Assembly (NCBI RefSeq): GCF_024181725.1
Contig: NZ_CP028908.1
Location: forward strand, 4,825,501-4,889,500
Length of the DNA stretch: 64,000 bases
Direction of reading: 5' to 3'
Source: Bradyrhizobium sp. WD16
GTDB lineage: Bacteria; Pseudomonadota; Alphaproteobacteria; Rhizobiales; Xanthobacteraceae
Shown in pieces: positions 25,002-42,422 of this stretch (the first letter of the stretch is position 1; every line of letters begins with the position of its first letter). The translations under genes and the position numbers were made by a program. Under the pieces are notes generated by a model. The model worked only from the letters and a program-made list of their open reading frames with translations, was not told the origin of the DNA and searched no databases.

Positions 25002-25132
25002 CTAGTGTCCTGTCTCCGAATTACCGCCCCATTTGCCTCACGCTCGCACGGTCATTCGGAGGCATAAAGGACACTAGCAAAATCAAAGCGCTAGTGTGGC
25101 TTATGTCTCGCAATTGCGAGACGCCACACTGG
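25002..25132 (+). repeat. Composite palindromic repeat, copy 1 (hairpin types A and B)
   Basis: Type A hairpin at 25002-25077 (ends CTAGTGTCC and GGACACTAG, inner arms TCTCCGAAT and ATTCGGAGG), a 13-base spacer CAAAATCAAAGCG, then a short type B hairpin at 25091-25132 (AGTGTGGC and GCCACACT around GTCTCGCAATTGCGAGAC). Type B here lacks the loop of about 37 bases seen in other copies. It fills the gap between convergent TRAP and leucine operons and contains the stop codon of the HMG-CoA lyase gene. Confidence 0.9.
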
Positions 25133-26018
25133 CGTTGAGCGCGGTGGCGACGCGGCTCGGCGGCGGCCGACCGATCAGGCGGCTGATCGCATTGGTCGCA
25201 TCGAGCAGCTTGGGCAGGTCGATGCCGGTGCTGACGCCCATGCCGTCGAGCATGTAGACGACGTCCTCGGTCGCGACATTGCCGGTCGCGCCCGGCGCAT
25301 AGGGGCAGCCGCCGAGGCCGCCGGCGGCGCTGTCGATGACGCGGACGCCTTCCTCCAGCCCGGCGTAGAGATTGGCGAGGGCCTGGCCGTAGGTGTCGTG
25401 GAAGTGCATGGCGATCTCGCCAAGCGGCACCTCGCCCGCAACTGTACGCAGCAGCCGCCGCGCTCTTGCCGCCGTGCCGACGCCGATGGTGTCGCCGAGC
25501 GAAATCTCATAGCAGCCGAGGTCGCGGAGCGTCCTTGCAACCGCGGCGACAGCCGCCGGCTTGACTTCGCCGTCGAACGGGCAGCCGAGAACGCAGGAGA
25601 CGTAGCCGCGCACCCTGACGCCGTCGGCGCGGGCGCGCGCCAGCACCGGGCGGAAGCGATCGATGGATTCGGCGATGGAGCAGTTGATGTTGGCGCGCGA
25701 AAACCCCTCGGAGGCGGAGGCGAAAACCGCGATCAGGGTGGCGCCGGCCGCCCGCGCCGCCTCGTACCCCTTCTCGTTGGGCACCAGCACCGGAAAGTCG
25801 ATTCCGGAATGATGGCTGACCGCGCGCAGCACGGCATCCGAACCGGCCATCTGCGGCACAGCTTTGGGCGAGACGAAGCTGCCGACCTCGATGGTCTTGC
25901 AGCCGGCGCTCACCAGGGACTCGACGAAGGCGATGCGGCCCTCGACCGGGACCGCCGCCTTTTCGTTCTGCAGCCCGTCCCGCGGGCCGACTTCGACGAT
26001 GCGGACCTCGTCCACCAT
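25101..26018 (-). CDS. mvaB: Hydroxymethylglutaryl-CoA lyase
   Basis: 305-residue lyase splitting HMG-CoA into acetoacetate and acetyl-CoA, the last step of leucine breakdown. The N terminus has VGPRDGLQNE (catalytic Arg and metal Asp). YVSCVLGCPFDGEVKPA and the metal-binding MHFHDTYGQALAN follow. The active-site signature GLGGCPYAPGATGNVATED contains the catalytic Cys. It is last in a four-gene minus-strand operon, seven bases after the carboxylase alpha gene. The final codons (NASVASRNCET) and the TAA stop come from the type B repeat hairpin, so the natural C terminus has been replaced or extended by repeat DNA. Confidence 0.93.
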   Translation of the reverse strand: MVDEVRIVEVGPRDGLQNEKAAVPVEGRIAFVESLVSAGCKTIEVGSFVSPKAVPQMAGSDAVLRAVSHHSGIDFPVLVPNEKGYEAARAAGATLIAVFASASEGFSRANINCSIAESIDRFRPVLARARADGVRVRGYVSCVLGCPFDGEVKPAAVAAVARTLRDLGCYEISLGDTIGVGTAARARRLLRTVAGEVPLGEIAMHFHDTYGQALANLYAGLEEGVRVIDSAAGGLGGCPYAPGATGNVATEDVVYMLDGMGVSTGIDLPKLLDATNAISRLIGRPPPSRVATALNASVASRNCET

Positions 26019-26025
26019 GGCGTCT

Positions 26026-28038
26026 TCAGGCCTCCGTCGGTTCGATGTCGGCGAGTTCGGCCCCTTCCTGGACGATGTCGCCGACCTTGCATTTGAGCGC
26101 CCTGACGACGCCGTCGAACGGCGCCCGCAAGGTCTGTTCCATCTTCATCACCTCGAGGGTGAGGATCGCCGCGCCCTTCTCGATCGCCGCCCCCTCCTCG
26201 GTCAGCAGGGCCACCACCGTGCCGGGCAGCGGCGCCACGATCCGGTCCTCGCCGGCATGGTCCTCGTCCTCGACGCCGAACGGATCGACGAGATGCAGGT
26301 CGAAGCGGCCATTGCGGCTGCGCACGTAGATCTCATGGCCCTCGACCACCGCCACCACCTGGGTGCGGGCGCCGGAAAGATCAAGGCGGATCTCGGCGTC
26401 AGGCCCTGCCGTCCAGGCGAAGACGATCTCGCGGCCGTCGAAGGTCAGGGTCGACGGGCCGCGGCCGTAACGCAGGGTCAGGCGGTGTTCGGTCGCGTCC
26501 TGCCGCAGAACGAACAGGCGCTGGCGCCGGCCCACCGGCATCCAGCCGGCCGTGCGCCAGGGCGATGACGCGTCGGCCTCGGCGCTGCGGGCCTCGTCGC
26601 GCAGCACGGCGGCAACGGCGGCGCCGAGCTCCAGCGGCGATACCGGCGGCGATGCAGGCGTCAGCGCGGCGAGTTCACGCTCGATGAAGCCGGTATCGAT
26701 GGTGTTGGCGCGGACGGCCGGATGGGTCACCAGCGCCGACAGGAACGGAATGTTGGTGACGATGCCGCGCAGATCGCTGTCGTCGAGGCCGTGGGCAAGC
26801 CGCTCCAACGCGGCCTCGCGCGTCGGCCCCCAGGCGATCACCTTGGCAAGCATGGCGTCGTAATTCGGCGACACGGTGTCGCCGGCACGATAGCCGGCGT
26901 CGACCCGCAGCCCGCCGGCCTCGGCGGGCATGCGCCAGGTCCGGATGCGGCCGACCGACGGCATGAAGCCCCGCGCCGGATTCTCGGCATAGACCCGCGC
27001 CTCGACCGCGTGGCCGTTCAGCCGGACCTGATCCTGGGCCAGCGGCAGCACCTCGCCGAATGCGACGCGAAGCTGCCACTCGACGAGGTCGATGCCGGTG
27101 ATCAGCTCCGTGACCGGATGCTCGACCTGCAGGCGGGTGTTCATCTCGATGAAATAGACGTCGTGACCGTCCGAGACGAATTCGATGGTGCCGGCGCCGA
27201 CATAGTTGACGGCGGCGGCTGCCTTGCGCGCCGCGGCGCAGACCGCCTCGCGCTGGGCCGGGTCGAGAGTCGGCGATGGCGCCTCTTCGATCACCTTCTG
27301 ATGGCGGCGCTGCAAGGTGCATTCGCGCTCGAACAGCGACAGCAGATTGCCGTGGCTGTCGCCGATCACCTGGACCTCGATATGCCGCGGGTTGTCGACA
27401 TATTTCTCGATCAGCACGCGGTCGTCGGCGAAGGCCGCCAGCGCTTCGCGCTTGGCGCTCTGGAGCGCTTCGGCGAACTCGCCGGCGGTGCGCACGACAC
27501 GCATGCCGCGGCCGCCGCCGCCGGCGGAGGCCTTGATCAAAACCGGAAAGCCGATGGTTTCGGCCGCCGACCGCAGCGTCGCCTCGTCCTGCGCCTCGTC
27601 GTGATAGCCGGGCACCAGCGGCACGCCGGCCCGGGCCATCAGCGCCTTGGAGCCCGATTTCGAGCCCATGGCCCGGATCATGGCCGCCGTCGGGCCGACG
27701 AAGATCAGGCCGGCATCGCGGCAGGCGTCGGCGAATTCGGCACTTTCGGACAGGAAGCCGCAGCCTGGATGGATCGCCTCGGCGCCGGTCGCCTTCGCCG
27801 CCGCGATTACCCGCTCGATGTTGAGATAACTGTCGCGGGCCCGCGCTGGTCCGAGCAGGATGGCGTCGTCGGCCACGGCGACATGCATGGCATCCTGGTC
27901 GGCCTCGGAATAGACCGCGACGGTGCGCAGTCCGAGCGCCCGCGCGCTGCGGATGACGCGGCAGGCGATCTCGCCGCGGTTGGCGACCAGGAGCGTGCGG
28001 AAGCGACGATAAGGCACGGCGGTCACATCTGGCTCCAC
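26026..28038 (-). CDS. liuD: Methylcrotonyl-CoA carboxylase, biotin-carrying alpha subunit
   Basis: 670-residue acyl-CoA carboxylase alpha subunit. The biotin carboxylase part starts FRTLLVANRGEIACRVIRSA and has ATP-grasp features (KASAGGGGRGMRVV, FIEMNTRLQVEHPVTELITG). A linking BT domain follows, and the C-terminal biotinyl domain carries LEVMKMEQTL with the biotinylated lysine near residue 632. Substrate assignment to 3-methylcrotonyl-CoA rests on the operon (beta subunit, methylglutaconyl-CoA hydratase, HMG-CoA lyase). Its 5' end overlaps the hydratase gene by 16 bases. Confidence 0.93.
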   Translation of the reverse strand: MEPDVTAVPYRRFRTLLVANRGEIACRVIRSARALGLRTVAVYSEADQDAMHVAVADDAILLGPARARDSYLNIERVIAAAKATGAEAIHPGCGFLSESAEFADACRDAGLIFVGPTAAMIRAMGSKSGSKALMARAGVPLVPGYHDEAQDEATLRSAAETIGFPVLIKASAGGGGRGMRVVRTAGEFAEALQSAKREALAAFADDRVLIEKYVDNPRHIEVQVIGDSHGNLLSLFERECTLQRRHQKVIEEAPSPTLDPAQREAVCAAARKAAAAVNYVGAGTIEFVSDGHDVYFIEMNTRLQVEHPVTELITGIDLVEWQLRVAFGEVLPLAQDQVRLNGHAVEARVYAENPARGFMPSVGRIRTWRMPAEAGGLRVDAGYRAGDTVSPNYDAMLAKVIAWGPTREAALERLAHGLDDSDLRGIVTNIPFLSALVTHPAVRANTIDTGFIERELAALTPASPPVSPLELGAAVAAVLRDEARSAEADASSPWRTAGWMPVGRRQRLFVLRQDATEHRLTLRYGRGPSTLTFDGREIVFAWTAGPDAEIRLDLSGARTQVVAVVEGHEIYVRSRNGRFDLHLVDPFGVEDEDHAGEDRIVAPLPGTVVALLTEEGAAIEKGAAILTLEVMKMEQTLRAPFDGVVRALKCKVGDIVQEGAELADIEPTEA

Positions 28039-28808
28039 GACGGCTTGCGCTTTTCGAGGAAGGCCGCGAGCCCTTCACGGGCCTCGTCCTTCGCCCGCAT
28101 ATCGGCGATCAATTCGGCGGTATGGCGCAGCACGCCGGCATCGATGGCCCGGCCGGCGACCTGGCCGACCAGGGCCTTGGCGGCGGCGCGAGCGCCTGGC
28201 GCACCGCTGCGCAGCTGCTCGAGGAGCGCGGCGATGCGATCGTCCAGCGCCTCGGCGGCCACCGTCTCGTGGACAAGACCGATGCGGGCTGCCTCGGTCG
28301 CCGAGAACACCTCCGCGGTCTGGAAATAGCGCCGGCCATGGCGGGCGCCGATTGCGCGCAGTACATACGGGCTGATCACCGCGGGCACGAGGCCGAGCCG
28401 GACCTCGGACAGGCAGAAGCTGGCATCGGCTGCGGCGACGGCGATGTCGCAGGCCGCAACGAGGCCGATGCCGCCGCCATAGACCGGCCCCTGGACACGG
28501 GCGATCGTCGTCTGCGGCATTCGATCGAGCGCCGCGAGCATGCGCGCCAGCGGCTCGGCGTCGCGGATATTCTCCTCGCGGCCGTAGGCGGCCGCCCGCT
28601 TCATCCAGTTGATATCGGCCCCGGCGCAGAAGCTGCGCCCCTCGCCGGAAACCACGACCGTGGAAACTCCGTCGTCGGCGGCGACCGTTTCGAACGCGGC
28701 AGCGAGCGCCGCGATCATCGCCTCGTCGAAGGCGTTGTTGCGTTCGGGGCGGTGGAGGACGATACGGGCGAGCCCGCCGTCGCGCGCAATGCGTACGCTT
28801 TCGGTCAT
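28023..28808 (-). CDS. liuC: Enoyl-CoA hydratase/isomerase family protein, probable methylglutaconyl-CoA hydratase
   Basis: 261-residue crotonase-fold enzyme. RIVLHRPERNNAFDEAMI, SGEGRSFCAGADINWMKRAA (oxyanion hole) and QGPVYGGGIGLVAACDIAVA (second oxyanion glycine and catalytic-region residues) are clear. The catalytic Glu lies in ASFCLSEVRLGLVPAVISPY. In this operon the expected step is hydration of 3-methylglutaconyl-CoA to HMG-CoA. It lies three bases after the carboxylase beta gene and overlaps the alpha gene. The substrate is inferred from neighbours, since crotonases are hard to separate by sequence. Confidence 0.88.
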   Translation of the reverse strand: MTESVRIARDGGLARIVLHRPERNNAFDEAMIAALAAAFETVAADDGVSTVVVSGEGRSFCAGADINWMKRAAAYGREENIRDAEPLARMLAALDRMPQTTIARVQGPVYGGGIGLVAACDIAVAAADASFCLSEVRLGLVPAVISPYVLRAIGARHGRRYFQTAEVFSATEAARIGLVHETVAAEALDDRIAALLEQLRSGAPGARAAAKALVGQVAGRAIDAGVLRHTAELIADMRAKDEAREGLAAFLEKRKPSWSQM

Positions 28809-28811
28809 GAT

Positions 28812-30416
28812 CTACATCCTGAAGACGCCGAAGCGGGTCGGCTCGCTCGGCGCATTGGCGGCAGCGGACAGGCCGAGCCCGAGGACAAGACGGGTGTCGG
28901 CGGGATCGATGATGCCGTCATCCCACAGCCGCGCCGTGGCGTAATAGGGGTGGCCCTGCTGTTCGTACTGGGCACGGATCGGCGCGCGAAACGCATCCTC
29001 CTCGTCGGTCGACCATGTGCCGCCCTTGGCCTCGATGTTGTCGCGGCGAAGCTGGCTGAGCACCATGGCGGCCTGATCGCCGCCCATGACCGAGATCCGC
29101 GCATTGGGCCACATCCACAGGAAGCGCGGGCTGTAGGCACGGCCGCACATGCCGTAATTGCCCGCACCATAGGAACCGCCGATCACCACCGTGAATTTCG
29201 GCACAGCCGCCGTCGCCACCGCGGTGACGAGCTTGGCGCCGTCGCGGGCGATGCCGCCGGCCTCGTACTTCTTGCCCACCATGAAGCCGGTGATGTTCTG
29301 CAGGAAGACCAGGGGAATCTGTCGCTGACAGCACAGTTCGATGAAGTGCGCGCCCTTGAGCGAACTCTCGCTGAACAGGATTCCGTTGTTGGCGACGATG
29401 CCGACGGGATAGCCGAAGATGTGGGCGAAGCCGCAGACCAGCGTCGGGCCGTAGAGTTTCTTGAACTCCTCGAACTCCGAGCCGTCGACGAGGCGGGCAA
29501 TGACCTCGCGCACGTCGAAGGGCTTGCGCGCATCCGCCGGCACCACGCCATAGATCTCCTCCGGCGCATGGAGCGGCTCCCGCGGCGTACGGCGGCCGAT
29601 GGCGGCGTCGTGCGGCGGGTTGAGGTTGCCGACGATGCGCCGGGCGATGCCGATGGCGTGGGCGTCGTTCTGGGCGTAGTGATCGGTGACGCCGGACTGG
29701 CGGCTATGGACGTCGGCGCCGCCGAGTTCTTCCGCCGACACGACCTCGCCGGTCGCGGCCTTGACCAGCGGCGGGCCGCCGAGAAAGATCGTGCCCTGGT
29801 TGCGCACGATGATGCTCTCGTCGGACATCGCCGGAACATAGGCGCCGCCGGCGGTGCAGGAGCCCATCACCACGGCGATCTGCGGAATCGCCTGCGAGGA
29901 CAGCTGCGCCTGGTTGTAGAAGATGCGGCCGAAATGCCGCTCGTCCGGGAAGATCTCGTCTTGCTGCGGCAGGAAGGCGCCGCCGGAATCCACCATGTAG
30001 ATGCACGGCAGACGGTTCTGCCGCGCGATGTCCTGGGCGCGCAGATGCTTCTTCACCGTCATCGGATAGTAGGTGCCGCCGCTGATGGTGGCGTCGTTGG
30101 CGACGATCACGCATTCGCGGCCGGCGACGCGGCCGATCCCGGTGATGATGCTGGCGGAGTGGACGCTGCCGCCATAGAGACCGTAGGCGGCGAGCGGCGA
30201 CAATTCGAGGAAGGCCGTGCCCGGATCAATCAGCAGATCGACGCGATCACGCGCCAGCATCTTGCCGCGCGAGGTGTGCCGCGTCCGAGAAGCCTCGCCG
30301 CCGCCGAGCGCGACCTGATCGAGCTTCTCGCGCAGGTCCGCCACCAGACCGCGCATGGCCTCGGCGTTGCGGAGGAAGTCAGCGGATTTTGGATCGATTC
30401 CGGAGTGCAACGCCAT
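28812..30416 (-). CDS. liuB: Methylcrotonyl-CoA carboxylase, beta (carboxyltransferase) subunit
   Basis: 534-residue carboxyltransferase. The ATG at 30416 ([20 protein letters not shown]) has GGGAGG just upstream and matches the usual N terminus; the frame is open for 64 more codons of noise. Conserved parts include [60 protein letters not shown] and [20 protein letters not shown]. It is the first gene of the leucine-degradation operon. No isovaleryl-CoA dehydrogenase gene lies upstream, which is unusual for this cluster. Confidence 0.94.
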
Positions 30417-30815
30417 CTCCTCCCAAGCCCTCCCGGCCGTGTCCCTCGTCTGCCCTGGCGGGGATGAATCGTTGTGCCTGCCGGGGCACATGCCCCCGGG
30501 GGGCGGGACGCCTGCACTAAAGCAGTCTGCGCGGACCTGTCCAGCGCCACGGCGACAGAGGGCCGGCGATTTCGGCGTGGGGCCCGGCGGCTTGACGCAA
30601 GACATCATGAGCCCCGGTGCCGCCGCGGCGCTCGGACCGGGCGGCCCTTCGGCCGGTCAATTGTCGTCAGGGAGCCGGAGGTGAAGACCGTAGGGGATCG
30701 AGCTGGAGCGCCACGGCATGTGGGGCGCGGTCAACGAACGGCGGGATCAGCGCGATCGGGAGCATCGCCGCTTTCCGGCGTCGATGACCGTCAGTTGGCA
30801 AAATTCAAGGCTAAG
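30417..30815. other. Intergenic region upstream of the leucine operon
   Basis: About 399 bases between the carboxylase beta start and the NDUFS4-type gene stop. I see no credible gene; the long open frame on the plus strand is composition noise. It must hold the promoter of the leucine operon. Inverted GC-rich clusters near 30490-30505 could form a hairpin, but no terminator T run follows. Confidence 0.3.
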
Positions 30816-31121
30816 TCAGTGAGTCCATGGCTCGGGGCGACGATAAGCGAAGTTGTCGGAATAGGCGGCGATCCGCCGCACCGGCTCCTTCGGTTCGACC
30901 ACCTGGTAGGGAATGCCCTCGCGCTCGCAATAGGCGATCGCGTCTTCCCTGGTATCGAAACGCAGGGTCAGCTGCTGCTTCATGTCGGCCGAGCTGGTCC
31001 AGCCCATCAGCGGTTCGACCTCCCGGGGCAGCTCGGGCTCGTAGTCGAGCTGCCATTCCCGCGACTTGGCCTTGCCCGATTGCATCGCGTTCTTGGCGGG
31101 TTTGTAGATACGGGCCGTCAT
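30816..31121 (-). CDS. Complex I accessory subunit, NDUFS4 (ETC_C1_NDUFA4/18 kDa) family
   Basis: 101-residue protein of the NADH:ubiquinone oxidoreductase 18-kDa subunit family, found in mitochondria and alphaproteobacteria. MTARIYKPAKNAMQSGKAKS, WQLDYEPELPREVEPLMGW, LRFDTREDAIAYCEREGIPY and QVVEPKEPVRRIAAYSDNF are the family's conserved blocks. It is a peripheral-arm accessory subunit with no cofactor of its own. The ATG at 31121 was chosen over an in-frame ATG at 31184. It stands alone, away from any nuo operon. Confidence 0.9.
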   Translation of the reverse strand: MTARIYKPAKNAMQSGKAKSREWQLDYEPELPREVEPLMGWTSSADMKQQLTLRFDTREDAIAYCEREGIPYQVVEPKEPVRRIAAYSDNFAYRRPEPWTH

Positions 31122-31368
31122 GACGTCATGAACTCCAGTCGCTGCTTCGTGTCGCCGCATTGCGGCATCCTCGGGACCAGTCACGAGGCATCAAATCTTC
31201 GCGGTGGCCATCGCGTCCCTTCCGGAGCGCGTCTCTTTCAGTATATGAGCCTTTTATTGTACGATTCCGCTGTTTAACAGCCCTATTCCTTGTCCGTATC
31301 CTATTCGTTCCCGTTCCCGAGACAATCCGGCCGGCCGGGCCGAAAAGGCGGGCCGTGGCAGCCCCGAA

Positions 31369-32559
31369 ATGGTGGATATGAGCATCCGAGCGACACTTCC
31401 CTCCGGCGGCCGCGACCTGCGGCTGGACCTCTTTCGCGGCATCGCCAACTGGTGGATCTTCCTCGACCACATCCCCTACAACATCGTCAACTGGCTGACG
31501 CCGCGCAATTACGGCTTCAGCGACGCCGCCGACCTGTTCGTCTTCATCTCGGGGTACACCGCTTCGTTCGTCTATGCGCGGATGATGCTGGAGCGCGGCT
31601 TCCTCGTGGGCGCGACGCGGCTGATGAAGCGAGTCTGGCAGCTCTATGTCGCCCACGTCTTCCTGTTCGTCATCTACATCGTCACGATCGGCTTCGTTGC
31701 GATCAAGTTTCACGACCCGGACATCATCAACGAGTTCAACGTCGCCGGTCTCGTCGAAAATCCGATCGAGACGCTGACCCAGGGCATGATCCTCAAGTTC
31801 AAGCCGGTCAATCTCGACGTGCTGCCGCTCTACATCGTGCTGATGGGCTTCTTTCCGCCGGTGCTGTGGCTGATGCTGCGTCGGCCGGACACCGTGATGG
31901 TATGCTCGCTCGTCCTGTATTTCGCCGCCCGCCAGTTCGGCTGGAATCTCCCCGCCTACCCGATCGGCACCTGGTATTTCAACCCGTTCTGCTGGCAGCT
32001 CCTGTTCATCTTCGGCGCCTGGTTTGCGCTCGGCGGAGCGCTGGAGTCGCGCTCGGTGATCCAATCCAGGCACCTCCTGATCGCCGGCATCGCATATCTC
32101 TTGTTCTCGCTGGTGATGACCATGGCGGGCCGCTTCGAAGCAATCGGCAACCTGTTGCCGCCCTGGCTCTATGAGGCCTTCAATCCGAACGACAAGACCA
32201 ACCTTGCGCCTTATCGCGTACTCCATTTCGTCATCATCGCCTTCCTGGTCACCCGCTTCCTGCCGCAGAACTGGTCGGGGCTGGAGTGGAAGATCTTCGA
32301 ACCGATGATCCGCTGCGGACAGCAGTCGCTCGAGGTCTTCTGCGTCGGCGTGTTCCTGTCCTTCGTTGCCCATTTCATGCTGACACTGAGTTCCGGGTCG
32401 ATACTGGTGCAGGTCGTCATCAGCGTGGTCGGCATCGCGCTGCTGTGTGTCGTCGCTTATTATCGCAGCTGGTCGAAGCGACAGGACAAGCCGCCGCCGC
32501 GCCCGCGTCCCGCCCAGCATCCGGTGGAGGCCGGCGCAGCCGACGCCGGCCTGGTGTGA
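31369..32559 (+). CDS. opgC: OpgC family membrane protein (acyltransferase-like)
   Basis: 396-residue integral membrane protein with about ten hydrophobic segments. The N-terminal RDLRLDLFRGIANWWIFLDH, NYGFSDAADLFVFISGY and GATRLMKRVWQLYVAHVFLF are typical of OpgC_C proteins, which in other bacteria succinylate periplasmic glucans. The C-terminal tail is basic and proline-rich. A second ATG nine bases in (31378) is an equal start. It is transcribed divergently from the NDUFS4-type gene and stands alone. The glucan substrate is family knowledge, not shown here. Confidence 0.85.
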   Translation: MVDMSIRATLPSGGRDLRLDLFRGIANWWIFLDHIPYNIVNWLTPRNYGFSDAADLFVFISGYTASFVYARMMLERGFLVGATRLMKRVWQLYVAHVFLFVIYIVTIGFVAIKFHDPDIINEFNVAGLVENPIETLTQGMILKFKPVNLDVLPLYIVLMGFFPPVLWLMLRRPDTVMVCSLVLYFAARQFGWNLPAYPIGTWYFNPFCWQLLFIFGAWFALGGALESRSVIQSRHLLIAGIAYLLFSLVMTMAGRFEAIGNLLPPWLYEAFNPNDKTNLAPYRVLHFVIIAFLVTRFLPQNWSGLEWKIFEPMIRCGQQSLEVFCVGVFLSFVAHFMLTLSSGSILVQVVISVVGIALLCVVAYYRSWSKRQDKPPPRPRPAQHPVEAGAADAGLV

Positions 32560-32654
32560 CCGGCGATCCCGCCGCGGCAGCTTCATTATTCTGATCTGGC
32601 GCCTTGCGGTGCCAGACGCAAAATCGTAAGTGTTTCGCGGCTTTTAGGCCTCGT

Positions 32655-35278: not shown

Positions 35279-35431
35279 ATGCAGAACTTTATCGAGACCC
35301 AGAATATCGCCCGCTTCAAGGCTCTGCTCGAAACCGAGACCGACCCTGACAAGCGCCGTATCATCAAGCAGCTGCTCGCGGAAGAAGAGGCAAAACACGC
35401 GGCGCGAATCGCCGGCGAGCGCTCCGTTTGA
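35279..35431 (+). CDS. Conserved 50-residue helical small protein
   Basis: Short gene encoding MQNFIETQNIARFKALLETE followed by TDPDKRRIIKQLLAEEEAKH and ending IAGERSV. It has a good Shine-Dalgarno (GCGGGAGG about 8 bases upstream). The pattern of an N-terminal 'ENI-RF--LL' stretch followed by 'ERR-I--LL-EEEAK' is, from memory, a recurrent small-protein type in Bradyrhizobium and relatives. It is all helical, soluble and highly charged. Its function is unknown. It is followed by two composite palindromic repeats and then a convergent gene. Confidence 0.72.
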   Translation: MQNFIETQNIARFKALLETETDPDKRRIIKQLLAEEEAKHAARIAGERSV

Positions 35432-35471
35432 CGCCGCAGCCTCGACGGAACTCCCGTCGAGAATTGCCGAC

Positions 35472-35639
35472 CTAGTGTCCTGTCTCCGAATTACCGCTTC
35501 ATTTGCCTCACCCTCGCACGGTAATTCGGAGACATAAAGAACACTAGCAAAATCAAAGCGCTAGTGTGGCTTATGTCTCGCAATTGCCTACGAGAGGCTT
35601 GCCGCGAAGGCGGTAGGCAATTGCGAGACGCCACACTAG
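35472..35639 (+). repeat. Composite palindromic repeat, copy 2 (hairpin types A and B)
   Basis: Type A at 35472-35547 has a perfect 16-base inner stem (TGTCTCCGAATTACCG with CGGTAATTCGGAGACA) inside CTAGTG ends. The spacer is CAAAATCAAAGCG. Type B at 35561-35639 has an inner 17-base stem (GTCTCGCAATTGCCTAC with its complement) and a 10-base outer stem CTAGTGTGGC/GCCACACTAG. It lies in a convergent gap. Its final CTAG is also the first CTAG of the adjoining type C hairpin. Confidence 0.92.
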
Positions 35640-35801
35640 TGTCCCGGTTCCAACGTTCGTATTCCGTTGCAGCGCTCATATGAACGTTGGAAACAAAGGG
35701 ACACTCGCATCATTATGATTCTCGTGCGGCTTTTGATCTGACGCGCGTATGAAGAATTCGCTGCAATGCGGAAACAAGCGTCAGATCCAAAACCGCACGA
35801 G
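35636..35801 (+). repeat. Composite palindromic repeat, copy 2b (hairpin types C and D)
   Basis: Type C at 35636-35707 (outer CTAGTGTCC, inner TTCCAACGTTC paired with GAACGTTGGAA) and type D at 35721-35801 (outer CTCGTGCGG/CCGCACGAG, inner GATCTGACGC/GCGTCAGATC). They are separated by a 13-base spacer CATCATTATGATT. Both ends of D changed together (CTAG to CTCG and CGAG), keeping the pairing. It ends one base before the stop codon of the DUF192 gene. Confidence 0.9.
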
Positions 35802-35802
35802 C

Positions 35803-36276
35803 TCATCTGGCTTCGAACAGCGGATGGGCGACGCGGTCGCCCGGCTTGATGCCGAGTTTCTTCGCAGTGCCAGCGATGACTTCCAGGACACCGCGCACCG
35901 GCCCGCCGGAAGGAATGATCTTTTCCGATTCGACCTGGGTATTCTCCGCGATCCGCAGGATGCGCCCGTCGGCCTTGATGAAGATCATGTCGAGCGGGAT
36001 CAGGGTGTTCTTCATCCACATGGAAACATTCTGTTCGGGCTGAAAGTCGAACAGCATGCCGCGGCCTTCGGGCAGCTCCTTCCGGAACATCAGGCCGTGC
36101 TCCCGTTCTTCGTTGGTCCGCATCAACTCGACGGTGAAGGGCAGCACACCGGACTGGGTGATGATCTCGAGAGACTGGAGTTCAGCGGCGCGCAGTGGGC
36201 CGCCAAACGGTCCGCACAGCACAGCCAGTAACGCGAGGAGCGACCACAAGGTCGCCAGACGACCGCGAGCTTTCAT
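35803..36276 (-). CDS. DUF192 family periplasmic protein
   Basis: 157-residue protein with an N-terminal signal peptide or anchor (LATLWSLLALLAVLCGPFGG, cut near LRAAELQ). The DUF192 fold follows, with LPFTVELMRTNEEREHGLMF, GRGMLFDFQPEQNVSMWMKN and TLIPLDMIFIKADGRI. The family is widespread in bacteria with no established activity. Its 3' end abuts a repeat hairpin and its upstream region contains another repeat copy. The 5' start MKARGR is supported by the signal sequence. Confidence 0.88.
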   Translation of the reverse strand: MKARGRLATLWSLLALLAVLCGPFGGPLRAAELQSLEIITQSGVLPFTVELMRTNEEREHGLMFRKELPEGRGMLFDFQPEQNVSMWMKNTLIPLDMIFIKADGRILRIAENTQVESEKIIPSGGPVRGVLEVIAGTAKKLGIKPGDRVAHPLFEAR

Positions 36277-36351
36277 CGAGATGACATATCCTGGACGAGA
36301 TTCAAATCCGGGCGAAACCGGGCCGGATCAAGAGGCGAGCGGTGGGAATAC

Positions 36352-36632
36352 GAACGTTAGAACCAAAGGGCCACTAGCATGGCTATGATTCTAGTGTGGT
36401 TTTGGATCTGACGCGCGTACGGAGAATTCGCTGCAACGCTGATACGAGCGTCAGATCCACTACACTAGTGTGGCGTCTCGCAATTGCCTACCGCCTTTGC
36501 AGCAAGCCTCCTCGTAGGCAATTGCGAGACATAAGCCACACCAGCACTTTGATTTTGCCAGTGTCCTTATGTCTCCGAATGACCGTGCGAGCATGAGGCA
36601 AATGGAGCGGTAATTCGGAGACAGGACACTAG
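36352..36632 (-). repeat. Composite palindromic repeat, copy 3 (partial C, D, then inverted B and A)
   Basis: A degraded right half of type C (36352-36377), a type D hairpin (36391-36468), then a type B hairpin (36465-36544) and a type A hairpin (36558-36632). B and A are in the opposite orientation to the other copies; the spacer CACTTTGATTTTGC is the reverse complement of the A-B spacer. D and B share one CTAG at 36465-36468. It lies between the DUF192 gene start and the cold-shock gene stop. Confidence 0.9.
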
Positions 36633-36786
36633 CCAGTCCACGCCCAAGGTAAAGCCAGTCGGCCGGGCGCGATGCGCACGACTGCTTGATCGATTGATCG
36701 GGGCCGAGACCGAACGCCGTCCCGCATCAGGCGTGGTCTGTCGCTGAAGCAGGCTGGGCGACGTGTTGCGGCTCGCACCGAGCCGG

Positions 36787-37449
36787 TCAGTGCGGCGACA
36801 TGCCCGGCGCACCGGTCTCCGGCTGGATCTCCGCCGCCATCATGCCCTTGGAGCCCGGCCCGTAACGGACCAGCACGTACTGACCCGGCCGCAATTCGGT
36901 CATGCCGTAGCGGCGCAGGGTCTCCATGTGAACGAAGATGTCCGGCGTGCCTTCGCCACGCGTCAGAAAGCCGAAGCCGCGCAGCCGGTTGAACCATTTG
37001 ACCTGTGCGCGCTCGAGGCCGCTGGTCGGAGCCACGGTGGCGTGGGTCCGTGGCGGCGGCAGCTGCGCCGGGTGGATGGCCGTCGACTCGTCCATGGAGA
37101 CGACGCGGAATGCCTGATAGCCCTTGGCGCGCTGCAGACACTCGACGACGATCCGCGCGCCTTCATAGGCGGTCTGATAACCATCACGCCGCAACACCGT
37201 GACGTGAAGCAGCACGTCAGGCCAGCCGTTGTCAGGGATGATGAATCCGTAGCCCTTGGACGCGTCGAACCATTTGATGGCACCGCTGACCTCGACGAGG
37301 TTGGGCCCTGCCCCGTCGTTGAGGAAAGGATCCACAGGCGATCGCTCATATCCGCGATGATCGAGCGCTCTCGGTTCAAGCCCCCGCGATGCCGCTCCGC
37401 TGCCAACGGAACTGCCCGCCCCCTTGGACTCAAAACTGTCCGACCCCAT
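36787..37449 (-). CDS. Tandem cold-shock domain protein
   Basis: 220-residue protein with two cold-shock domains. The first is VSGAIKWFDASKGYGFIIPD followed by VLLHVTVLRRDGY; the second is AQVKWFNRLRGFGFLTRGEG followed by DIFVHMETLRRYGM. Each has the RNP1-like KGYGFI or RGFGFL motif that stacks on single-stranded nucleic acid. A flexible Ser/Gly/Pro-rich N terminus (GAGSSVGSGAAS) and a linker (HPAQLPPPRTHATVAPTSGL) separate them. The ATG at 37449 (MGSDSFESKG) was chosen, with a GGGGA just upstream; in-frame ATGs lie at 37491 and 37503. The likely role is RNA chaperone. Confidence 0.9.
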   Translation of the reverse strand: MGSDSFESKGAGSSVGSGAASRGLEPRALDHRGYERSPVDPFLNDGAGPNLVEVSGAIKWFDASKGYGFIIPDNGWPDVLLHVTVLRRDGYQTAYEGARIVVECLQRAKGYQAFRVVSMDESTAIHPAQLPPPRTHATVAPTSGLERAQVKWFNRLRGFGFLTRGEGTPDIFVHMETLRRYGMTELRPGQYVLVRYGPGSKGMMAAEIQPETGAPGMSPH

Positions 37450-37817
37450 TTCCCCGGACCTCACACTGACGCGATCAGCCACCGCGTGCATCCCTGTCAC
37501 CATTCGCCTGCGCCAAACGAAAACGCCAGCTTCCGGCCCGCGCGATCCGAAACCGATCGTTAAGCTTTGATTCCGGGCGCGCGAATCTTGTGATTCGACG
37601 ATAACACTCCCGCGCAACCGGCAAAGCCAAAAAAAGTCGCGATGCCGACCTATGAACAGCCTTGCACCGAAAACGAATCAGATCGGCGGCTTCAGTTGCC
37701 GACGAAGGGGCCCACGCTCCTTCGAGCGTCCGAGCCGAAGCGACGCCAACGGACAATAGAATTCCCGTTCGTTTCCGGATTTGGCGTTCTACGGACGATT
37801 TGCGGCGACGCCGGTAG
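37450..37817. other. Intergenic region between sirtuin and cold-shock genes
   Basis: About 368 bases, no credible gene. As both flanking genes are on the minus strand, this must include the promoter and probably a long 5' leader of the cold-shock gene, a known feature of many csp mRNAs. I see no specific thermosensor structure. Confidence 0.3.
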
Positions 37818-38573
37818 TCAAATCCACTTCACCAGCGTGTCGCCGATGTCATGGCGAATGACCAGATCCGCAAGATCGTCCTGGTCGGTGGGCTCTTTGT
37901 TGACGATCACGAGCTTTGCGCCGGCCTGCTTGGCCATCGTCGGAATACCGGCCGCCGGCCACACCACCAACGAGGAGCCCATGGCGAGGAACAGATCGCA
38001 ACCGCGCGCCAGTTCCGCGGCACGGCGCATTTCTCCGTCCGGCATGGACTGGCCGAAGGAGATCGTCGCGGTCTTCACCGGCTCGCCGCAGGCCGTGCAG
38101 TCCGGCGCATGGCCGGTCCAGTCGTAGACCTGCTTGGCCCAATCGAGTTCATAGCGCGCGCCGCAGCCGATGCAGCGTGCGTACGACGTATTGCCGTGCA
38201 GTTCGATGACGGCATCGGCAGCAATGCCGGAGGCCTGGTGAAGGTTGTCGATGTTCTGGGTGATTACGGCCGGCACCTTGCCGGCACGATAAAGCGCGGC
38301 GATCGCCCGATGGCCCCGTCCAGGTCGCGCCGCGGCGAAGGTGCGCTCCAAGGCGAAGCGTCGCCGCCAGGCCTCGTCGCGAGCGTCCTGGCTGGCGACG
38401 AACTCGTCGAAGGGGATCGGCCGGTTGCGTGTCCACAGCCCGCCGGGCGAGCGAAAATCGGGAATACCGCATTCGGTCGAAATGCCGGCACCGGTGAAGG
38501 GAACGATCACCGAGGCACTGGCGATCATGTCGCCGAGTTGTTCGACACCGCTGGCGAGAGTCTGGGCAATCAT
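37818..38573 (-). CDS. Sir2-family NAD-dependent protein deacylase
   Basis: 251-residue sirtuin. The Rossmann core motifs are PFTGAGISTECGIPDFRSPG and ITQNIDNLHQASG, with the catalytic His in ELHGNTSYARC. The zinc ribbon uses CIGCGARYE and CTACGEPVK. MGSSLVVWPAAGIP completes the NAD site. The start at 38573 (MIAQTLASGV) was preferred to an upstream in-frame ATG at 38645. It removes acyl groups from lysines using NAD+; the acyl preference is not clear. It stands alone, divergent from the glyoxalase gene. Confidence 0.92.
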   Translation of the reverse strand: MIAQTLASGVEQLGDMIASASVIVPFTGAGISTECGIPDFRSPGGLWTRNRPIPFDEFVASQDARDEAWRRRFALERTFAAARPGRGHRAIAALYRAGKVPAVITQNIDNLHQASGIAADAVIELHGNTSYARCIGCGARYELDWAKQVYDWTGHAPDCTACGEPVKTATISFGQSMPDGEMRRAAELARGCDLFLAMGSSLVVWPAAGIPTMAKQAGAKLVIVNKEPTDQDDLADLVIRHDIGDTLVKWI

Positions 38574-38900
38574 CGAGCGCCACACCTGGAATGGCCTGAA
38601 TGGCGAGTTGGGTGATGATGAGTTGGTTCGAGCCGATCTGGGCAATGTAGTCCGCCGCCGTAGCGGGGCAAGGTTGGCAGCATCGATATCCGGATCCGGC
38701 GCGTCCTGCTTTCGTCAGCCTCGCCCACTCGGGCGTCGTCCGAGACCGACTCGCACCCGGACGACAAGCGTATTCGTGAGCGAGATGCAGGCAGATCAGG
38801 GCACCTCCGCGTGCAATTTTGTGCCCGTTGTTGCTATTCTCGCCGCCATCTGGGTCGGGCTGGAATTGCCTCGCCAGGAATCCTGAAAGGAATAGAACCC
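38574..38900. other. Divergent intergenic region between sirtuin and glyoxalase I genes
   Basis: About 327 bases. A 33-residue frame at 38785-38886 (MQADQGTSACNFVPVVAILA..., one hydrophobic stretch) ends 14 bases before gloA. It lacks a clear ribosome site, and I do not count it as a gene. No operator was recognised. Confidence 0.3.
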
Positions 38901-39347
38901 ATGCGCTACCTCCACACCATGCTGCGCGTTCGCAATCTCGACGCCGCGCTGAAATTCTATCGCGATGCCCTGGGGCTCGAGGAGGTGCGGCGCATCGAGA
39001 ACGAGAAGGGCCGCTTCACGCTGGTCTTTCTCGCGGCGCCCGAGGACCGGGAACTGGTCAAGCAGAAGGGGCGCCCCGCGCCCACGGTCGAACTCACCTA
39101 TAACTGGGATGAAGAGACCTATGGCGAGGACCGCTATTTCGGTCACCTTGCCTATGAGGTCGACGACATCTATGCGACCTGCGACCGGCTGGCCAAGCTC
39201 GGCATCACCATCAATCGGCCGCCGCGCGATGGCCAGATGGCGTTCGTGCGCTCGCCGGACCGCCACTCCATCGAATTGCTGCAGAAAGGCGAAGCCAAGC
39301 CGCCGCAAGAACCCTGGGCCTCGATGCCCAATACCGGCCACTGGTGA
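38901..39347 (+). CDS. gloA: Lactoylglutathione lyase (glyoxalase I)
   Basis: 148-residue VOC-fold enzyme that isomerises the methylglyoxal-glutathione hemithioacetal to S-lactoylglutathione. MRYLHTMLRVRNLDAALKFY carries the first metal His, VELTYNWDEETYGEDRYFGH the Glu and the second His, and SPDRHSIELLQKG the last Glu. Length and motifs match the Ni-type bacterial enzyme. The start at 38901 has AAAGGA a few bases upstream; the longer frame from 38811 lacks support. Confidence 0.93.
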   Translation: MRYLHTMLRVRNLDAALKFYRDALGLEEVRRIENEKGRFTLVFLAAPEDRELVKQKGRPAPTVELTYNWDEETYGEDRYFGHLAYEVDDIYATCDRLAKLGITINRPPRDGQMAFVRSPDRHSIELLQKGEAKPPQEPWASMPNTGHW

Positions 39348-39419
39348 CAGCGCGCGCGCCGGAACAGCCAAGATCCGCCCACGTTGATCTCGCACCACGC
39401 GAGATCATTGGAGGCGAGG

Positions 39420-39500
39420 ATGGGACGAGGAATTCTGTTGTGGCTGATCGGCGTGCCGATCCCCGTGATCATTCTGCTTTGGCTGTTCTTCGGTCACTGA
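39420..39500 (+). CDS. 26-residue conserved-looking small membrane protein
   Basis: A tiny gene, MGRGILLWLIGVPIPVIILL then WLFFGH, with a strong Shine-Dalgarno (GGAGGCGAGG directly upstream) and a terminator-like hairpin 22 bases after the stop. Short MGRG-start, single-helix peptides with a PIP-type motif recur in alphaproteobacteria as far as I recall. Almost the entire peptide is one transmembrane helix, so it should sit in the inner membrane. Function is unknown. The ribosome site and terminator make it more credible than its length suggests. Confidence 0.68.
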   Translation: MGRGILLWLIGVPIPVIILLWLFFGH

Positions 39501-39521
39501 CCAAGTTCTAAAACAATCCAA

Positions 39522-39549
39522 GAAGGCCCCGCCATGGCGCGGGGCCTTC
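39522..39549 (+). terminator. Terminator-like hairpin after the 26-residue gene
   Basis: GAAGGCCCCG (39522-39531) pairs perfectly with CGGGGCCTTC (39540-39549) around an 8-base loop. No strong T run follows, so termination on the plus strand is probable but not certain. Confidence 0.55.
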
Positions 39550-39805
39550 GTCCACCTCACCTCGACCTCGGGACTGATCGGCAATTTCGGCCAGGCCAAC
39601 GACGCCGCCGCCAAGCTCGGCATCGTCGGCCTGTCGAAGTCGATCGCGCTCGACATGAACCGCTTCAATGTCCGCTCCAACTGCGTCTCGCCCTTTGCCT
39701 GGAGTCGTCTGATCGGCACCATCCCGACCGAGACCGAGACCGAGGCGGACACGGCCCGGGTCGCGCATGCAGCAGATCGGACTGGAGAAGATCGCGCCGC
39801 TGTGA
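39548..39805 (+). pseudogene. Remnant of a short-chain dehydrogenase/reductase gene
   Basis: Internal and C-terminal part of an SDR: TSGLIGNFGQANDAAAKLGI, VGLSKSIALDMNRFNVRSNC and PFAWSRLIGTIPTETE. The catalytic Tyr-x-x-x-Lys has become Asp-x-x-x-Lys (NDAAAK instead of NYAAAK). Near 39770 the homology shifts frame: MQQIGLEKIAPL continues in another frame and meets TGA at 39803-39805. There is no N-terminal Rossmann part or start codon. It is a decayed fragment with no likely function. Confidence 0.75.
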
Positions 39806-39869
39806 GGGGCTGGCTCCTCCGTATCGCCCGCGCCAGCCGACTTGGCCCCTCGAAAGCCCCTCTCCGACC

Positions 39870-40673
39870 TCAGTCGAGGAATTTCGGCGCTCGCTTTTCC
39901 AGATTGGCGCGGACGGCCTCGGCCTGGTTCGGCGAGCCCATCAGCTTCTGCTGTTCGACGGATTCGGCCAGCAGCGCCGGCGCAGGATCGGGCAGCAGCG
40001 CGTTGAGCATGCGCTTGGCGGCACGAACGGCGTCGGGACTCTTGCCGGCGATCTCAAGCGCAGTCTCGAGCGCGGCGGTGTAAGGATCGTCGCAGATCCG
40101 GGTCGCAAGACCGTAGCTGAGCGCTTCCTGCGCCGAGAAGATGCGGCCGGTGAAGGTCAGTTCGCGCAGGATATCGTCGCGGACGAGGCTCGCCAGGATC
40201 GGCGTGCCGGCCATGTCCGGCACCAGTCCCCACTTGATTTCCATGATCGACATCCGCGCGTCGGGAGATAGAAAGCGCATGTCGGCGCCGAGCGCCAGCT
40301 GGAAACCGCCGCCGAAGGAGACGCCGTGGACCGCGGCGATGACCGGGACTGGGAGCTGGCGCCAGCCCCACACCGCCTGCTGGGCGTGATTGGCGATGCC
40401 GTGGGTGCGCGCCGTGAGATCGCGGAAGCCGCCGGTGCCGTGACCGCCATTGTCGTTCATGGCGGCGAAGCGGCCCATGTCGAGGCCGGCACAGAAGGCG
40501 CGACCTTCGCCGGACAGCACCACGGCGCGCAGCCCCTTGGTCTGCTGGAGACGCGCCGCAGTATCGACCAGCGCCTCGAACATGGCGGCGTCGAGCGCAT
40601 TCATCTTGTCGGCGCGAGTCAGGCGCACGTCGGCGACGCCGTCGGTGATCGTCACTGCAATCCGCCCGGTCAT
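39870..40673 (-). CDS. Enoyl-CoA hydratase/isomerase (crotonase) family protein
   Basis: 267-residue crotonase. VRLTRADKMNALDAAMFEAL, SGEGRAFCAGLDMGRFAAM and HGVSFGGGFQLALGADMRFL form the oxyanion hole and CoA site, with MEIKWGLVPDMAGTPILASL near the catalytic position. The usual catalytic Glu region reads SIMEIKWGLVPD, so one Glu is retained. The start at 40673 (MTGRIAV) was chosen over an in-frame ATG at 40748. It stands alone beside the SDR remnant, with which it may once have formed a fatty-acid oxidation cluster. The substrate is unknown. Confidence 0.87.
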   Translation of the reverse strand: MTGRIAVTITDGVADVRLTRADKMNALDAAMFEALVDTAARLQQTKGLRAVVLSGEGRAFCAGLDMGRFAAMNDNGGHGTGGFRDLTARTHGIANHAQQAVWGWRQLPVPVIAAVHGVSFGGGFQLALGADMRFLSPDARMSIMEIKWGLVPDMAGTPILASLVRDDILRELTFTGRIFSAQEALSYGLATRICDDPYTAALETALEIAGKSPDAVRAAKRMLNALLPDPAPALLAESVEQQKLMGSPNQAEAVRANLEKRAPKFLD

Positions 40674-40853
40674 TGAACGTCCCTCCGCATCGTCTCGGTC
40701 CTGCTTACCAGAACACCGCGTCGAATTTAACCCAATTGTCGTCACCATCGTGGCGACAATTAACCACCGCGCGGAGCTTGCCGCGCCCGCGGCGCGGAAA
40801 AATGCGAGAAATGCCTCGACTGCTGATCACAGGTTGTCAGCGAGGAATGCACG

Positions 40854-41090
40854 ATGCGCCCCTTTTCAGCCACGGTCGCGACCGTCGTCGGCGCCCTGCT
40901 TGTCCTCACGCCGGCGCGCGGCGATGACGGACAGTATTGGGTGGTCGGCAATCCGACGTCCGGGTGCAGGATTGTCACCGCGAACCCGATCGTCGACGGC
41001 GGTAATATCACCTTCTCCGACGGCCCCTACCGGTCCGAAGCCGACGCCAGGCTCGCCATGAGCACGATCGGCATCTGCAAGACATCGTGA
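40854..41090 (+). CDS. Small secreted protein of unknown function
   Basis: 78-residue protein. The N terminus MRPFSATVATVVGALLVLTP is a signal peptide cut near ARGDDGQYW. The mature part (VVGNPTSGCRIVTANPIVDG, then FSDGPYRSEADARLAMSTIG and ICKTS) has two cysteines that could form a disulfide, and the GPYRSEADA stretch recalls small sporulation-related/SPOR-like repeats. I do not recognise a specific family. It lies alone between the crotonase and another small gene and is probably periplasmic. Confidence 0.6.
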   Translation: MRPFSATVATVVGALLVLTPARGDDGQYWVVGNPTSGCRIVTANPIVDGGNITFSDGPYRSEADARLAMSTIGICKTS

Positions 41091-41192
41091 GCGGACCGCT
41101 ATGTTTCGTTTAGCTACAATTTGAGTGATCGGCTGCACCGGGCCGCAACCCCTCCGTGCGAGAGTGCGTCATCTTCTGGCGGACTGATCCCG

Positions 41193-41384
41193 ATGACCGA
41201 ACGCGAATACCAAATCGTCCTTGATGCCGTGGCCGAGGCCATGACGGTGGCGCCGCATGAGCGTACCGTCGACGATGGCGAGGACTTCGAGGATATGTTT
41301 CACTACCTGCCGCAACCGGCCAACGACAATGCCGGCCCCTGGCCCCTTCTGCCGTTCCCCGACGGCTGGACCGCCTCCTGCTGA
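41193..41384 (+). CDS. Small acidic protein of unknown function
   Basis: 63-residue acidic protein, MTEREYQIVLDAVAEAMTVA then HERTVDDGEDFEDMFHYLPQ and a proline-rich end (NAGPWPLLPFPDGWTASC). The ATG at 41193 was chosen over one at 41121, whose extension looks like noise. There is no signal or membrane segment. It is followed by the tandem palindromic repeat. I do not recognise it. Confidence 0.45.
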   Translation: MTEREYQIVLDAVAEAMTVAPHERTVDDGEDFEDMFHYLPQPANDNAGPWPLLPFPDGWTASC

Positions 41385-41504
41385 GGGCTTCCGGCGCCCA
41401 TCCCGCCAACAAATTCGTTGCCAAGGCACGGCGGCAATTTATACGCGTTGCGGGACTGGAGTGACGACGACTGGCGCAAGGCGCGCAGAATCCATCTGCG
41501 CGGC

Positions 41505-41834
41505 CTAGTGTCCCGTCTCCGAATTACCGCTTCGTTTGCCTCACGTTCGCACGGTCATTCGGAGACATAGGGACACTAGCAAAATCAAAGTGCTAGTGTG
41601 GCTTATGTCTCGCAATTGCCTACGAGAGGGTTGCAGCGACGGCGGTAGGCAATTGCGAGACGCCACACTAGTGTCCCGTCTCCGAATTACCGCTTCGTTT
41701 GCCTCACGCTCGCACGGTCATTCGGAGACATAGGGACACTAGCAAAATCAAAGTGCTAGTGTGGCTTATGTCTCGCAATTGCCTACGAGAGGGTTGCAGC
41801 GAAGGCGGTAGGCAATTGCGAGACGCCACACTAG
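41505..41834 (+). repeat. Composite palindromic repeat, copy 4 (A-B tandem duplication)
   Basis: Two nearly identical A-B units, period 163 bases: A 41505-41579, B 41593-41671, A 41668-41742, B 41756-41834. The two units share a single CTAG at 41668-41671. Each has the spacer CAAAATCAAAGTG. The pair lies between convergent genes, and the last CTA supplies the stop codon of a small minus-strand gene. Confidence 0.95.
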
Positions 41835-41944
41835 ATGTCACGCGTCTTGGCCCGGCCAATTCGGGCCCGCTCCACGCACGGCGACAACGCGGCGATCACC
41901 GCCAGCGCAGCCATCCCGAGTCCGACAATGGTCACAGCACTCAT
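41831..41944 (-). CDS. 37-residue small membrane protein under candidate CtrA control
   Basis: A short gene, MSAVTIVGLGMAALAVIAAL then SPCVERARIGRAKTRDI. It has one hydrophobic helix and a basic tail with a cysteine, and a strong Shine-Dalgarno (GGAGGA, 7 bases upstream). Its TAG stop is the CTAG end of a type B repeat hairpin. Two CtrA-like boxes lie 50-115 bases upstream. The ribosome site and promoter elements argue for a real gene. It is unrecognised; it resembles small pilin-like or membrane peptides only in general outline. Confidence 0.5.
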   Translation of the reverse strand: MSAVTIVGLGMAALAVIAALSPCVERARIGRAKTRDI

Positions 41945-41993
41945 CCGACGTCCTCCGGCACGATCCCCGATGTCTCAAATTTGACGGAGCCGG

Positions 41994-42059
41994 ATAACCA
42001 CGCGTTAACATCCGGGGCGGGGCGCCGCCCAAATCCAGTGCCGGTTAACGAATCGTTAA
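41994..42059 (-). promoter_or_regulatory. Two CtrA-like boxes upstream of the 37-residue gene
   Basis: A perfect TTAA-N7-TTAA (42045-42059, spacer CGAATCG) and a one-mismatch copy (41994-42008, TTAA-N7-TTAT on the minus strand). CtrA, the cell-cycle regulator of alphaproteobacteria, recognises TTAA-N7-TTAA. The boxes lie about 50 and 100 bases before the small minus-strand gene start. Confidence 0.5.
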
Positions 42060-42254
42060 GATCGATGCCCGTGCTCGCGGAGGCAGATGCAAGCCGCGCC
42101 GCCGGCCCGCTCTGCGGCGCCGTTCCGTCGAATGTCCAAGTGGATTGATAGCGCCGGCGGCCGGAACTGAGCGCAGCGCGCCGCCGCCGAGGCGGCCAGC
42201 ATCGGCGGTTAACGGCTCCGATACGAATTTCCTTTATGCGACTAAATCCTAATC

Positions 42255-42422
42255 CTAGTGTCCTGTTTCCAACGCTCGTATTTCTTTGCAGCAGGCGCTT
42301 CCACGAACGTTGGAAACAAAGGGACACTAGCATCATTATGATTCTAGTGCGGTTTTGGATCTGACGCGTGTTTGAAGAACTCGGCTCCAATGCTGAAACG
42401 AGCGTCAGATCCACCGCACCAG
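42255..42422 (+). repeat. Composite palindromic repeat, copy 5 (hairpin types C and D)
   Basis: Type C at 42255-42330 (CTAGTGTCC...GGACACTAG, inner TTCCAACG...CGTTGGAA), spacer CATCATTATGATT, then type D at 42344-42422 (CTAGTGCGG...CCGCACCAG, inner GATCTGACGC/GCGTCAGATC). It lies in a divergent gap, upstream of a 100-residue gene, unlike most copies. Confidence 0.9.

Follow-up and report, generated by a model that had tools for sequence, protein, structure and literature searches.

A REPIN-like family of two-hairpin repeats with CTAG ends in Bradyrhizobium sp. WD16 and other Alphaproteobacteria

The closest described counterparts of the element studied here are short palindromic repeats, which are summarized below as they appear in the available sections of the sources cited. 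Repetitive extragenic palindromic (REP) sequences are 20-50 nt palindromes with a GTAG motif (PMC8266576). Bradyrhizobium and many alphaproteobacteria contain high-copy palindromes of the GTAG and CGTC types, and no transposase is associated with the latter (PMC3733652). The Bru-RS1 and Bru-RS2 repeats of Brucella measure 103 and 106 bp (PMC10800456), and Bru-RS1 is a landing site of IS711 at YTAR (PMC3163539). RIME (PMC2573895, PMC2873474) and A-B-C motifs are known from Sinorhizobium; the available part of one more source (PMC2267715) makes no mention of Bradyrhizobium. In the archaeon Haloquadratum, PATEs carry near-terminal palindromes, have no transposase and in some cases come from IS605, and the SMRs, of about 110 bp, insert without target duplication into the palindromes of other elements, their mover being unknown (PMC3119063). 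The present family was studied from a 64-kb stretch of Bradyrhizobium sp. WD16 (assembly GCF_024181725.1, contig NZ_CP028908.1, positions 4,825,501 to 4,889,500 of the forward strand), hereafter the window, whose first letter is position 1. Its unit is a pair of hairpins separated by a 13-nt spacer and arranged as A-spacer-B or C-spacer-D. The favored explanation, which seems somewhat more probable than all others together, is a REPIN-like non-autonomous element, whole units of which would be mobilized from folded single-stranded DNA and inserted at CT|NG without target duplication.

The plan of the unit is that of REP doublets (REPINs) and bacterial interspersed mosaic elements (BIMEs) accompanied by REP-associated tyrosine transposases (RAYTs), in which inverted imperfect palindromes and a spacer also form the replicating unit, present in hundreds of intergenic and tandem copies without coding capacity. 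Each hairpin is about 75-80 nt long, has CTAG at both feet (the foot reading CTAGTG), a stem of 24-25 bp, a loop of roughly 20-24 nt and a bulge of 3-5 nt on its inner arm. A resembles the reverse complement of B, with the extra bulge on the inner arm of both, which makes the unit a mirror-image pair like those of BIMEs and REPINs. An inverted palindrome pair with a spacer is thus shared with REPINs, whereas the GTAG-preceded palindrome of 20-50 nt is missing, a Y1 transposase has no match in 19 of 27 other carriers, and the hairpin length, the CTAGTG feet, the large loops and the insertion of units in each other's CTAG are all different. Like the GTAG and CGTC REPs, the units are high-copy palindromes of alphaproteobacteria, and like the CGTC type they come without an associated transposase, but the CGTC stems of 8-9 bp and loops of 4-5 nt (PMC3733652) contrast with 24-25 bp and about 20 nt or more here. 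Near-terminal hairpins recall the PATEs, and insertion into other elements' palindromes recalls the SMRs; the lack of target duplication that would extend both likenesses is inferred for the present units. Both of these families are archaeal, and the available text on them describes no unit built of two mirror-image hairpins around a 13-nt spacer (PMC3119063). Bru-RS1, Bru-RS2, RIME and the A-B-C motifs are likewise palindromic intergenic repeats of alphaproteobacteria; Bru-RS and RIME were compared by description, not by sequence, and the 103 and 106 bp of the former differ from the 164-170 bp found here.

The pattern of the junction between the two hairpins, allowing up to two mismatches, has 470 matches in the 5.95-Mb WD16 genome, as against none for the reversed control, and two whole units fold as DNA into essentially two hairpins each, with z-scores of -9.2 and -8.9. 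A chance origin of the family is ruled out by these results, which supply a genome-wide count and a folding test, two kinds of check that the earlier note on this DNA had called for. At about 165 bp each, 470 copies would amount arithmetically to about 1.3% of the genome. Parsing of 440 kb of the WD16 genome and 60 copy loci yielded 128 junctions, 115 of them with both ends; these full units measure 164-170 bp and comprise 61 A-B units (12 of them carrying a third spacer, CAAAATCAAAAAG, and 49 not), 36 C-D units and 18 that are chimeric or unclear. No coding capacity was seen in the units. The view that they are REP/BIME-like and non-autonomous is supported by their features: inverted imperfect palindromes, largely intergenic, in high copy, tandem, nested and non-coding as far as could be seen. 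Eight two-hairpin units were read directly in the sequence at five places of the window:

25002-25132, plus strand: A-spacer-B, its B hairpin cut to 42 nt, loop and inner stem gone (read directly; covariance model)
35472-35639, plus strand: A-spacer-B with spacer CAAAATCAAAGCG (read directly; covariance model)
35636-35801, plus strand: C-spacer-D, with one CTAG common to it and the preceding A-spacer-B unit (read directly)
36345-36468, plus strand: C-spacer-D, C truncated at left (read directly; weak covariance-model match at 36336-36463, minus strand)
36465-36632, minus strand: A-spacer-B, with one CTAG common to it and the C-spacer-D unit at 36345-36468 (read directly; covariance model)
41505-41671, plus strand: A-spacer-B, first of a tandem pair of period 163 (read directly)
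41668-41834, plus strand: A-spacer-B, second of the tandem pair (read directly; covariance model)
42255-42422, plus strand: C-spacer-D with spacer CATCATTATGATT and right outer tetramer CCAG (read directly; covariance model; DNA fold)

The five places are those that had been named before, with units read at every one (the fourth, given earlier as 36352-36632, runs from 36345 to 36632), and the fixed 13-base spacer between two hairpins, for A-B as for C-D, was borne out throughout: it reads CAAAATCAAAG[CT]G or CATCATTATGATT, and CATGGCTATGATT in the truncated copy. Neighboring units are joined through one common CTAG, and the two tandem A-spacer-B units are 99% identical. The covariance model lists six of the eight units; the two omitted, 35636-35801 and 41505-41671, overlap listed matches by the shared CTAG.

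Judged by alignment, the A-B and C-D units belong to a single superfamily, in which each type forms a branch. The copies of relatives have other cores on the same plan, CTAGTGTCC...GGACACTAG, a spacer that is mostly CAAnnTnATGATT, then CTAGTGnnn...CACTAG, with a loop core near GCnGCA. The claim that the inner cores differ completely thus holds within the WD16 genome, but once relatives are added the cores grade into one another. End-to-end alignment over 174 columns was possible for 23 diverse units, namely 30 automatic representatives plus L124 and minus eight (six in-genome mosaics, the WD16 variant L038 and L107, whose right end was wrongly cut). Among 1125 stem cells of this alignment 97.2% are paired, compared with 82.5% in shuffles, and both sides have changed in 156 cells, compared with 36, the shuffles not preserving kinship among the 23 sequences; double changes support 31 of the 49 pairs. 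Sliding the stem partners abolishes this signal, a control that favors the tested structure since the latter is essentially the predicted consensus. Beside the 156 doubly changed cells, the comparison between subfamilies contains only nine with a one-sided standard (G-U) pair and 32 unpaired. Within the WD16 genome, decay of a copy usually affects a single side of the pair: the 36 distinct A-B units show 51 one-sided changes (9 G-T and 42 other mismatches) and 9 double changes, and 31 distinct C-D units show 91 (27 G-T and 64 others) and 23. By both comparisons G-U pairs are not favored, which fits the folding of DNA over that of RNA. On the simplest reading, the DNA fold would count for a copy only as long as it spreads. 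Some members (L291, L292 and L300, in G490 and G708) are about 130 nt long and have very short hairpin loops on an unchanged plan. Feet of the form GTGGTCC/GTGGAG mark a second unit type, which at L112 and L161 lies on the same contig as the GTGTCC/GTGTGG type.

The family moves as whole units that insert at CTAG in both orientations. Three kinds of arrangement show this: near-identical copies at scattered sites (identity is 95-100% for most of the top-scoring A-B copies listed), tandem arrays of up to four units, and whole units lying, in both orientations, inside the internal CTAG of another unit (L004, L023, L029, L036, L037, L040, L048 and L058). Such nesting also bears on the suggestion that the cores are exchangeable, which proved partly right: the apparent mosaic of eight clusters is a whole unit inserted into another, and a few chimeras, such as C-spacer(AB)-B and A-spacer(CD)-D, are apparently real. 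A D hairpin at genome position 4947636 is interrupted by an A-B unit with the flanks GACG-CTAG...CTCG-TATC, leaving CTAG at the left and CTCG at the right; when the flanks are rejoined, 67 matches in the local set span the joint, and the displayed copies with this stretch read GACGCTCGT. The outer ends were further compared over 166 parsed units with exact inner feet, of which 57 joined to another unit were set aside. In the remaining 109, the outer tetramer is other than CTAG twice on the left and 19 times on the right (Fisher p = 1.1e-4), the right variants being CTGG six times, CTCG three times, CCAG twice and eight further tetramers a single time each; a misparse (CACT, L160) is among the 19, and decay may account for others. 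When only CT[not A]G is counted, the figures are one and ten (p = 0.0098). Taken with the one CTCG target, this asymmetry suggests that units insert at CT|NG and do not duplicate TA. In the same-genus comparison of empty sites, the loci were too diverged and rearranged, and the right flank of one Bradyrhizobium candidate was not alignable.

The junction pattern occurs in 16 of 80 genomes (WD16 and 15 relatives), with at most 27 matches outside WD16. When 289 genomes of the class were searched with the covariance model, 16 proved to carry copies, namely WD16 and 15 others in 10 other families; this count answers the earlier call to search related genomes and is a lower bound, since filters were strict and nine candidates were scored per genome. 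Among the 80 loci listed in a scan of named genomes, at least 38 belong to Bradyrhizobium sp. LHD-71 and at least 16 to a metagenome-assembled genome (MAG) of Parvularculaceae; the matches listed further include B. pachyrhizi, B. oropedii, B. uaiense, Afipia, a Pseudorhodoplanes MAG and other MAGs. A plasmid search with the A-B unit gave no copy; of further plasmid searches with units, two gave copies and one none, and full-length model matches lie on plasmids of Rhizobium, Ochrobactrum, Martelella, Sphingobium, Agrobacterium and Roseibium. The viral contigs searched contain no copy. Many of the matches in LHD-71 and the Parvularculaceae MAG are at contig ends or within a few tens of bases of them. 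Near-identical copies probably break both assemblies, and true copy numbers may therefore be higher. Contigs of these two genomes start or end inside a unit at L118, L119, L149, L156, L171, L172, L175, L177, L182, L189 and L194.

Gene context was drawn from a crude codon-usage gene finder run over 400 kb with 24 clusters of units. None of the clusters is inside a predicted gene, although in three the end of such a gene reaches 50-82 bases into the cluster. Their neighbors are tandem in 14 cases, convergent in 5 and divergent in 5, proportions similar to those of all intergenic gaps (113, 35 and 41). A predicted neighboring gene ends exactly on the outer CTAG, using its TAG as stop, at 6 of the 48 cluster ends. 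Of 109 ends in relatives, 22 have an open frame of at least 200 codons that stops at the outer TAG, compared with 7 and 3 for the other frames; the WD16 genome has no such excess (7 against 6 and 5 of 65). The same 400 kb contain 194 CTAG where 1277 are expected from base composition, and about 120 of the 194 are in units. In the window, unit 35636-35801 ends adjoining the stop codon of a minus-strand open reading frame (ORF) at 35803-36276. Four minus-strand ORFs at 25101-30608 resemble, from their translations, a leucine/isovalerate degradation cluster (lyase, biotin carboxylase, enoyl-CoA hydratase and carboxyltransferase). The HMG-CoA-lyase-like ORF (25101-26018) runs into the B hairpin of unit 25002-25132 for its last codons, and in G001 and G002 the similarity starts exactly at the element edge, 25130.

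What could move the units was sought among transposases and longer relatives. The only Y1/RAYT match in the WD16 genome is an uninterrupted frame of 226 aa (G000:C1:55306-56158, L082), flanked by inverted copies of a different repeat, GTGACAGTGCACTTAATT; a truncated A hairpin lies 3' of the frame. Y1 matches were found in 8 of 27 other carriers: 6 of 15 in a first set, ten of these 15 having three junctions or fewer, and 2 of 12 in a second, where one match is below the cut-off and one has a stop. No Y1 match was found in G012 (15 junctions) and G077 (10 junctions), both listed as 100% complete, or in the Parvularculaceae MAG, draft and MAG incompleteness being a caveat in the search for the mover. 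Y2 matches were found in 2 of 23 genomes, one of them over the cut-off; one of the 23, G001, has no copies by the pattern, and the sensitivity of this search, which left 14 control genomes unmatched, rests on G035. On these counts, both a RAYT as the general mover and an IS91-type Y2 enzyme were judged unlikely, and the link to a RAYT that the earlier note had envisaged found no support, the single Y1 gene having other inverted repeats beside it. A longer or autonomous element with the same ends, or a full-length IS605-type one, was not seen in 440 kb of WD16 or in 62 of the 80 listed loci, no genome-wide search having been made; three stretches between neighboring hairpins hold ordinary-looking ORFs, by eye one IS256-like and one like a RAYT remnant. 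The mover is probably not a Y1 (RAYT/IS200) or Y2 (IS91) transposase recognizable by Pfam.

In the favored scenario of a REPIN-like element, the replicating unit would be the mirror-image pair of imperfect hairpins held by the conserved 13-nt spacer, each copy adding about 163 bp. An enzyme acting in trans would recognize the pair folded in single-stranded DNA and join it at CT|NG without target duplication, so that the left CTAG would be carried by the element and the right tetramer would belong to the target. Copies that lose pairing would decay, and only well-folded masters would spread. Several points weigh against this scenario. Palindrome correction by template switching could give paired changes without any enzyme that reads the fold. 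A model with TA duplication fits every CTAG target equally, only the CTCG case and the end asymmetry opposing it, and the asymmetry is itself tempered by the misparse and the possible decay among the right variants. In B. pachyrhizi, the left flank is GGCT-CTAG where relatives read GGCTCGCCTGA and the right flank is rearranged, a locus that appears to misfit simple insertion after that CT and offers no clean test. No strand bias is apparent by eye in the listed C-D copies, in which mirror symmetry obscures orientation. Moreover, no mover was found among the Y1, Y2 and same-ended longer elements examined, and Y1 matches do exist in WD16 itself and in three (G002, G005 and G035) of the five other carriers with at least four junctions.

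These last matches would suit strict REPINs, that is REP doublets moved by a RAYT (TnpA-REP, a Y1 HUH enzyme) that cuts C|T in folded single-stranded DNA. Inverted palindrome pairs that are intergenic, tandem and clustered belong to the shared plan (PMC3116915), TnpA-REP cleaves at CT sites (PMC8266576), as described in the available parts of these sources, and the WD16 Y1 frame is intact with a truncated A hairpin nearby. Yet this frame is flanked by another repeat, most other carriers are without a match, and the stems, loops and feet without GTAG are unlike those of REPs, all of which makes a strict REPIN improbable. The TA-duplication model calls instead for a miniature inverted-repeat transposable element (MITE) of a DDE transposon. 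TA duplication and CTAG targets are habits of the IS630/mariner-like and IS5/IS427-like families, most copies have CTAG on both sides, and nested copies fit C-TA-[G...C]-TA-G. By eye, transposase ends of IS5/IS427-type appearance abut the CTAG of two units in L103 (G002, about positions 1420 and 2545), resembling what is reported of IS711 at Bru-RS1 in Brucella. A MITE of this kind is nevertheless unlikely in view of the CTCG target, the asymmetry of the outer tetramers, the failure to see a longer element with the same ends in the sequence surveyed and the fact that each half is a long hairpin, unlike simple terminal repeats.

Two further explanations seem very improbable. An RNA-guided recombinase of the IS110 type, whose core is CT, would leave the identical pattern if it inserted without duplication, with the two hairpins serving as guide RNA; however, the paired changes show no preference for G-U and so do not favor RNA folding, and the target has only about four specified bases. 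Equally hard to sustain is the idea of regulatory or terminator hairpins that selection on the host keeps in place at the ends of genes and that now move little. Their intergenic position, the gene ends falling exactly on the outer CTAG and the frame excess at the outer TAG in relatives speak for it, but this excess is lacking in WD16, there is no bias toward convergent genes, in-genome copies decay one-sidedly, and nesting and tandem arrays require movement. As for a name, the statement that no family of this structure was known still stands: none was found in the literature searched, which covered few subscription papers and in which RIME and Bru-RS could be compared by description only, or in Rfam. 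Rfam 15 returned two tRNAs only from the window at gathering score; its search of 11 relative loci, with E <= 0.1 as the limit, gave nothing credible, both matches falling far short of their gathering scores. One sub-threshold match overlies a unit (L115, mir-276, E 0.064).

Taken further, the REPIN-like scenario leads to a tentative proposal, held with rather less than even confidence, of an ancient and unnamed superfamily of the Alphaproteobacteria whose sole content would be its folded two-hairpin signature. An enzyme outside the Y1 and Y2 HUH types would read it in single-stranded DNA and paste it at CT|NG without duplication, often onto a neighbor's stop codon, and one lineage would have reached about 470 copies and 1.3% of its genome. 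The units are non-coding mobile repeats found across many alphaproteobacterial families, with a sharp anatomy of feet, bulges, loops and spacer, a high copy number and no known mover. As they supply most of the CTAG in a genome that avoids this tetramer, they may shape where CTAG-specific insertion sequences land. Their paired changes, with almost no G-U steps, offer a clean natural case pointing to selection on the folding of DNA, and with this family one can put directly to the test what moves REP-like elements where RAYTs are absent.

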